Below are positions 18,238 to 39,282 of a stretch of DNA of 64,000 nucleotides, piece by piece; within the stretch, counting starts at the first letter, position 1; each line of letters starts with the position of its first letter. Made by a program: the position numbers and the translations under genes. Source of the DNA: Pseudobutyrivibrio ruminis AD2017 (GTDB lineage: Bacteria > Bacillota > Clostridia > Lachnospirales > Lachnospiraceae); contig NZ_AUJQ01000006.1 in the NCBI RefSeq assembly GCF_000424305.1, positions 124,001 through 188,000 on the forward strand, in the 5' to 3' direction. The notes beneath the pieces were generated by a model that was not told where the DNA came from, ran no database searches, and worked only from the letters and a program-made list of their open reading frames with translations.

Positions 18238-18372
18238 AGTGAGTGACAATTTCTCAGTCTAGGCAAGCGCGAGCAGGAGGGCCCCATACCGAGTGAGGAG
18301 CTACTGCACCGGAGCGAAAGTATGGGAGATGGCCTGCGGGAGCATGTAAGAATAGAGGAATTGTCACGGACT
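18238..18372 (+). ncRNA. Rod-like structured element between thl and hbd (unknown RNA or dispersed repeat)
   Basis: GTGACAATTTCTC (18243-18255) pairs with GAGGAATTGTCAC (18355-18367) over 13 bp with one G-U, extended by AGT/ACT across a 2x2 internal loop. Inside, GCAGG pairs with CCTGC, and CCCATAC with GTATGGG, leaving a GC-rich tip of about 30 bases. The region is much more GC-rich than normal spacers here, has no open frame, and ends about ten bases before the hbd ribosome binding site. It could be a processed operon leader, a small RNA or a dispersed palindromic element. I cannot match it to a named family. Confidence 0.5.
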
Positions 18373-23819: not shown

Positions 23820-23837
23820 GAAATATATGAATTTTTA

Positions 23838-23953
23838 GATGAGGCTGTAGTTAACAATAATAAATATTACTCAAGGAGCAATCCCGCGACGGAGTAATAT
23901 TTATTATTGTGAACGTAACAGCCGGACTACCGGCTAGCCATGTAACAGCCGGA
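23838..23953 (+). ncRNA. Long conserved-tip hairpin element, copy 1
   Basis: GGCTGT (23843-23848) pairs with ACAGCC (23918-23923). Inside, a perfect 19-bp helix (23854-23872 with 23892-23910) carries a 19-base tip reading AAGGAGCAATCCCGCGACG. Copy 2 at 39178-39265 has the same outer motifs and nearly the same tip, but its long helix differs by paired changes that keep pairing. In this copy GTAACAGCCGGA is repeated at 23942-23953 after a small GCCGG/CCGGC hairpin. It lies between the MATE gene and the GH2 gene. Function is unknown. Confidence 0.65.
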
Positions 23954-39168: not shown

Positions 39169-39177
39169 TATTATTTA

Positions 39178-39265
39178 GATGAGGCTGTAGTAGACAATGA
39201 TTGTATTACAAAAGGAGCCAATCTCGCGACGTTGTAATACAATCATTGTCTGCGTAACAGCCGGA
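39178..39265 (+). ncRNA. Long conserved-tip hairpin element, copy 2
   Basis: GGCTGT (39183-39188) pairs with ACAGCC (39257-39262). A perfect 20-bp helix (39192-39211 with 39232-39251) carries the tip AAGGAGCCAATCTCGCGACG. Compared with copy 1 (23838), the flanks GATGAGGCTGTAG and CGTAACAGCCGGA are identical, the tip differs by one insertion and one C/T change, and the helix shows about five paired substitutions plus a paired deletion. It sits between kdgA and uxuA, inside the operon, and ends 17 bases before the uxuA ATG. Confidence 0.65.
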
Positions 39266-39282
39266 TTTGGAGGAGTAGATAG

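Follow-up and report, generated by a model that had tools for sequence, protein, structure and literature searches.

The window, the whole 64,000-nucleotide stretch of the Pseudobutyrivibrio ruminis AD2017 genome analysed here, contains two long hairpin elements, at 23838-23926 (copy 1) and 39178-39265 (copy 2), both of which had been picked out in an initial annotation as members of a new-looking hairpin family preceding sugar-catabolism genes. The downstream genes are of that kind, encoding a GH2 hydrolase and UxuA, and copy 2 sits between a KDPG/KHG aldolase gene and uxuA; the link to a pathway, however, is accidental, and other copies of the family adjoin genes of many kinds. As had also been noted, the feet GATGAGGCTGTAG and CGTAACAGCCGGA are identical between copies 1 and 2, and GTAACAGCCGGA recurs downstream of copy 1. 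The parts of the two elements are as follows.

23838..23926, plus strand: copy 1, whole hairpin element (model R1 match 23836-23930, 90.9 bits)
23843..23848, plus strand: copy 1, 5′ side of the outer helix P1, GGCTGT (from the fold; P1 covaries among copies)
23849..23849, plus strand: copy 1, A of the conserved A/GUR internal loop (from the fold; the 3′ side, GTA, is 23915-23917)
23850..23872, plus strand: copy 1, 5′ arm of the long helix P2, with invariant CAA (from the fold, covariation and pair comparison)
23873..23891, plus strand: copy 1, structured tip AAGGAGCAATCCCGCGACG, with AA and GA...GA around a 2-bp helix and loop (from the fold and mark counts)
23892..23914, plus strand: copy 1, 3′ arm of the long helix P2, with invariant TTG (from the fold, covariation and pair comparison)
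23918..23923, plus strand: copy 1, 3′ side of the outer helix P1, ACAGCC (from the fold)
23942..23953, plus strand: extra 3′ foot GTAACAGCCGGA after copy 1 (from the sequence; similar 3′-half repeats in L079, L083 and L097)
39178..39265, plus strand: copy 2, whole hairpin element (model R1 match 39176-39269, 91.6 bits)
39191..39211, plus strand: copy 2, 5′ arm of P2 (from the fold and pair comparison)
39212..39231, plus strand: copy 2, structured tip AAGGAGCCAATCTCGCGACG (from the fold)
39232..39252, plus strand: copy 2, 3′ arm of P2 (from the fold and pair comparison)

A scan of the window with model R1 returned copies 1 and 2 as the sole matches at E up to 10. Copy 1 folds at -37.9 kcal/mol (z -8.4) and copy 2 at -44.7 kcal/mol (z -9.7), with 0 of 200 shuffles equalling the value in either case; in both folds the tip is itself structured rather than a plain loop, and a GGA within it may be CsrA-like. 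When the two stems are compared pair by pair, 13 pairs are identical, 7 are changed on both sides, 1 is changed on one side, and 1 is a paired insertion or deletion. The paired substitution first described is real, as is the single paired deletion, but the number of doubly changed pairs exceeds the "about five" originally given, and the stem is not perfect, being interrupted near the base by a conserved A/GUA internal loop and, in copy 1, by an A.G mismatch. The extra GTAACAGCCGGA is read, from its sequence, as a probable remnant of a 3′ half-element; tandem repeats of the 3′ half or of the 3′ foot alone, like that of copy 1, were also observed in L079, L083, L097, and L172:433-700.

A covariance-model search of related genomes, as the initial annotation had advised, revealed many more copies, all in Pseudobutyrivibrio. 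The first model was built from 61 distinct copies and the second from 119 aligned copies; in the window's genome (G000), the second gave 66 matches, corresponding to 65 places once 1 match on the opposite strand of the same place was excluded, 64 of them full-length, with an element length of about 97 nt (about 100 bases). The two outcomes that had been set against such a family, namely a lack of further covarying copies and near-identical copies with target-site duplications, were not encountered: the copies are many and diverse, and no clear duplication was seen. Of the 29 Pseudobutyrivibrio genomes, 28 carry the element when searched with the first model at E up to 0.05, at between at least 2 and at least 123 matches per carrier (144 candidates per genome being scored), and the one genome without a match, G020, is 83% complete. 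The exact tip is present in 16 of the 29 genomes of the genus and in 0 of 116 other genomes of the family and order. Under filters stricter than those of the 29-genome scan, and in two samples that may overlap, the second model found nothing in 297 of 299 sampled genomes of the family and in 288 of 295 of the order, the matching remainder being in each case all Pseudobutyrivibrio. A scan of public genomes for the tip returned 56 stretches, 50 from records named Pseudobutyrivibrio, P. ruminis DSM 9787 and P. xylanivorans DSM 14809 among them, or Butyrivibrio fibrisolvens 16/4, and the other 6 stemless chance matches; among 67 tip matches, 6 that were stemless and from other taxa (L102, L115, L120, L127, L135, L145) were excluded. 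A viral collection gave 0 matches, and plasmid and phage records also 0; the family as found so far is confined to the genus Pseudobutyrivibrio. The earlier failure to recognise a riboswitch or ribozyme is matched by 0 Rfam families at gathering cut-offs in the window and 0 in 8 loci with varied copies, the only sub-threshold matches being to long-hairpin models, mostly microRNAs. Readings as a kink-turn, ribozyme, or riboswitch, weighed on consensus features alone, were dropped on the same absence of an Rfam match at cut-off. Among the papers listed by full-text searches of open-licence literature, none described the family.

From the outside inwards, the unit comprises a variable outer helix P1, an internal loop, a P2 helix of about 22 bp, an AA on the 5′ side, and a GA...GA tip. 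Its asymmetric marks were counted over 64 own-genome copies, a 49-nt deleted copy being left out. The internal loop, in which a 5′ A stands opposite a 3′ GU(A/G), is found in 62 of them; the CAA:UUG block, four pairs into P2, appears as CAA/TTG in all 64; and the GA-helix-GA tip is present in 61, against 5.7 expected from shuffles. The small tip helix itself covaries (GAC/GUC 22, AGC/GCU 15, GC/GC 12, AAC/GUU 4, and others). The tip had been described as conserved, and the AAGGAGCAATCCCGCGACG/AAGGAGCCAATCTCGCGACG type, with the loop CAAUCUC or close to it, does recur, but it is merely one among several types, others having AUUCUUA or UUUCUAU; constant across them is the GA...GA enclosing the covarying mini-helix. 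At the 5′ foot, GTAG occurs in 54 of the 64 copies. This foot is base-paired, and the G, T, and last G of GTAG pair with 3′-side bases and covary with them, the variants being GTAA with T, CTAG, TCAG, and CCAG.

In an alignment of the 61 distinct copies made without fitting to the structure, 90.1% of 1661 cells are paired and double changes are seen in 23 of 28 pairs. The covariation score reaches 0.525; shuffles give 0.168 +/- 0.009, none of 500 attaining that score, and slid pairings give 0.184 at most. Copies at orthologous sites are not independent, and these figures therefore overstate the number of events. The proposal of a hairpin family under compensatory stem change is thereby borne out, and the asymmetric marks are retained as paired substitutions alter the helices. 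One strand of the element is favoured, since G.T pairs far exceed A.C: 152 versus 13 in the model-fitted alignment of 119 copies, and 54 versus 7 over 21 of the 28 pairs in the unfitted alignment, the other 7 being omitted for a register that differs between size classes. In 62 of 65 copies, the sense RNA also gives the better fold of the two strands.

The elements are also one-sided with respect to genes. According to a simple ORF caller rather than annotation, by which some contexts may be mis-set (C4:68626 is doubtful), the 65 own-genome copies comprise 47 in sense between co-directional genes (++), 14 in convergent gaps (+-), 4 in antisense (--), and 0 in divergent gaps; the corresponding figures for the 61-copy set, orthologues included, are 49, 6, and 5, with 1 copy at a contig end. 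Of the intergenic bases in a 400-kb sample, 10.2% fall in divergent gaps, where none of the 65 copies lies (p = 0.0016), and 6.2% in convergent gaps, which hold 14 of the 65. Among single copies between co-directional genes, with three inverted pairs dropped, 44 of 45 are in sense. Of the 4 antisense copies, three adjoin a sense partner, the antisense member always lying upstream; the inverted pairs of G000 are C1:349322/349429, C3:273268/273385, and C7:73343/73497, in each of which the sense copy is next to the gene.

Leading strand could be assigned by local GC skew for 46 of the 65 copies. Co-directional sense copies run with the fork in 27 cases and against it in 1 (C1:30658, which follows a lagging-strand gene), and the 4 antisense co-directional copies all run against it. 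Copies in convergent gaps run 8 with and 6 against the fork, and the fork hence does not set orientation. Element orientation follows transcription, with the weight of this conclusion lying on few informative copies, mostly the 14 convergent ones. The 47 ++ copies are closely fitted between genes, with a median of 29 nt from the upstream stop to the unit and 17 nt from the unit to the next start. A TTTTT run stands directly behind the element in 10 of the 65 copies, 8 of them convergent, and in these T-run copies (for example, L003 and C3:88119) P1 forms a long terminator stem; other copies are placed between a stop codon and the next start.

Computation across related species shows whole copies gained, lost, swapped, and inverted. 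At the uxuA junction occupied by copy 2, 7 of 23 genomes have a family copy, 1 a remnant with P2 deleted, 2 an unrelated repeat, and 13 nothing; G000 and G025 carry the same copy, and the five other genomes carry different ones. In G023, with flanks 94/98% identical, the element is absent and the stop and start overlap (TAATG), an overlap found at 8 of the 13 empty junctions; at filled junctions, a GGAGG-like ribosome-binding site comes after the unit. At a second site, G000 and strain OR37 (flanks 97.6/96.2% identical) have different P1, P2, and tip, and G009 is empty. At the convergent locus C3:88119, compared with 'between 0' rows and L403 set aside as having flanks that are not side by side, the core is inverted within the same terminator stem in G006 (L379 versus L378), while G027 has a different copy and G023 (flanks 96-97% identical) an ordinary GC-rich terminator. 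The copy before a gene that we take to be gpsA-like is common to G000, G003, G006, G009, and G018 and is missing at the L105 site. Several genomes of the genus are without the element at a given site, with no evident harm. Given this turnover, the family is mobile or undergoes rapid exchange, and is not only a fixed structured RNA. Homologous exchange among copies could account for replacement, but not for entry into an empty junction.

Several further observations were made at these loci. In L077 and L086, which come from two genomes, two hairpins stand in tandem before a gene beginning MQLSNS, with a period of about 98 bases, and G000 has one. A second repeat, GGCAAGCGCGAGCAAGAGGGCCCC, has one match in the window (18262-18285, 1 mismatch), is present at 15 of the 407 loci retrieved, with overlapping ones tallied separately, often near hairpins, and occupies the uxuA junction of G014 and G018. 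The idea, prompted by L003 and L004, that the element inserts into the loops of existing hairpins was rejected, as empty sites are also without the outer helix and the terminator of a 96-97% similar relative at C3:88119 is unrelated. A 478-aa gene beside L007 and L044, suspected from shared flanks of being mobile, lies to one side of the element at orthologous places.

Copies 1 and 2 are probably members of a genus-specific, interspersed, REP-like hairpin family that is selected as sense-strand RNA. A boundary or processing hairpin is favoured by the sense bias, the proximity to stop and start codons, the use as terminators, and the constant asymmetric marks. Counting against the reading are the 4 antisense copies among the 65 and the sites in the genus that lack the element with no evident harm. 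Within a transcript, the hairpin would mark a 3′ end or an intercistronic boundary, acting either as an intrinsic terminator stem or in the gap from a stop codon to the following start, and its fixed asymmetric marks would be read by an RNA-binding protein or nuclease, which would stabilise or cut the mRNA there. The unit is best called REP-like, though two features of the REP/RAYT system, the unpaired tag and the transposase, are not seen, and it has features at the RNA level that form no part of the definition of REPs.

Comparison with known repeat systems draws on published accounts, PMC8040213 also among them. The resemblance to GTAG REPs and BIMEs extends to short interspersed extragenic palindromes in dozens of copies, a 5′-foot GTAG in most, fixed stem mismatch marks, inverted pairs, and both co-directional and convergent placement; E. 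coli REPs pair GTAG with a conserved mid-stem mismatch, which is recognised by the enzyme (PMC8266576), and REPs are described as sitting between unidirectional and convergent ORFs (PMC3733652). A GTAG-tagged REP family without an RNA role, whose hairpins fold as single-stranded DNA and are mobilised by a RAYT (Y1 HUH transposase), is nevertheless unlikely, even if the G.T excess over A.C would also be expected from folded single-stranded DNA of the sense strand. Y1 transposases (PF01797, RAYT type included) are found in 10 of the 29 genomes but not in G000, with its 64 full copies, and model R2 finds no element within 18 Y1 loci. The foot of the family is paired and covarying, whereas the GTAG of REPs is an unpaired tag; the elements are strongly sense-biased relative to genes; and the unit, at about 97 nt with a P2 of about 22 bp plus P1 and a tip helix, is larger than REPs, for which stems of 5-13 bp are listed (PMC3733652). 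Reverse transcriptases (PF00078) occur in 15 of the 29 genomes and not in G000, and attC/integron, IS200/IS605, and group II intron ends were rejected as candidates, with no supporting gene in G000 (PF01797, PF00078). At L297 and L302 (G009 and G028), a 206-aa Y1 transposase-like ORF overlaps the start of an ATPase ORF that we take to be ComM-like, with no hairpin element near it.

It is unlikely that the family is a passive, MITE-like palindrome, with its paired changes due to template-switch correction of the arms rather than to structural selection, an explanation that deserves slightly less credence than a RAYT-moved family. Template-switch correction of quasi-palindromes can generate paired changes without selection, and presence, absence, and replacement between close relatives, the inverted core inside the same terminator stem in G006, and the tandem and half copies are all in keeping with it. 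Arm correction should, however, erase asymmetry, and the A/GUR loop, AA/G, and GA...GA marks persist; the G.T excess and the sense bias are unexpected on this account; and, as far as the diverged flanks allow, no clear target-site duplication is seen at the uxuA junction or another empty site. Correia and ERIC are reported to be transcribed MITEs that alter mRNA, Correia being cleaved by RNase III (PMC10969869, PMC3049150), and, by analogy, such mobile palindromes acting once transcribed would offer a plausible functional model for the hairpin family. The family differs from them in its whole-stem covariation around fixed internal motifs and in that no terminal inverted repeat or target-site duplication was recognised.

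BOX, RUP, and SPRITE of Streptococcus pneumoniae are, like this family, intergenic repeats of genus-level range that form strong RNA secondary structure, SPRITE resembling terminators and the pneumococcal repeats being enriched between convergent genes, but the sequence and architecture of the present family are unlike any shown in the parts of that account drawn on here (PMC3049150). The pneumococcal repeats lie on the leading strand in 60.8-63.3% of cases, in step with coding bias (PMC3049150), as against the 44 of 45 single co-directional copies in sense in the Pseudobutyrivibrio family. Some copies do resemble intrinsic terminators in having a long P1 stem and a T run, but only 10 of 65 copies have TTTTT shortly after them, and the majority are flanked by co-directional genes. 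Neither P2 nor the conserved tip is part of an ordinary terminator, such as the plain one of G023 at the C3:88119 site.

A bolder scheme, to which we would give only slight credence, is that of a selfish or domesticated RNA element spreading via its own sense transcript. Such an element would enter stop/start junctions and gene ends in the transcribed direction only, would install a hairpin there (as a terminator, or together with a new ribosome-binding site), and would be recognised throughout the genus by a single dedicated RNA-binding protein through A/GUR, CAA:UUG, and GA...GA. Regulation in cis of particular genes, by a riboswitch, ribozyme, or protein leader, would suit structured sense RNA near start codons but is highly improbable given dozens of copies per genome beside unrelated genes, copies at terminators and where convergent genes end, the absence of the element from orthologous positions of sister species, and the lack of an Rfam match at gathering cut-offs.

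The annotation of these genomes omits a family present in 28 of the 29 species examined. Interspersed palindromes have mostly been treated as DNA, and a genus-wide role at the RNA level would here be directly testable, with many natural experiments provided by operon junctions at which close relatives have the copy, lack it, or have another.
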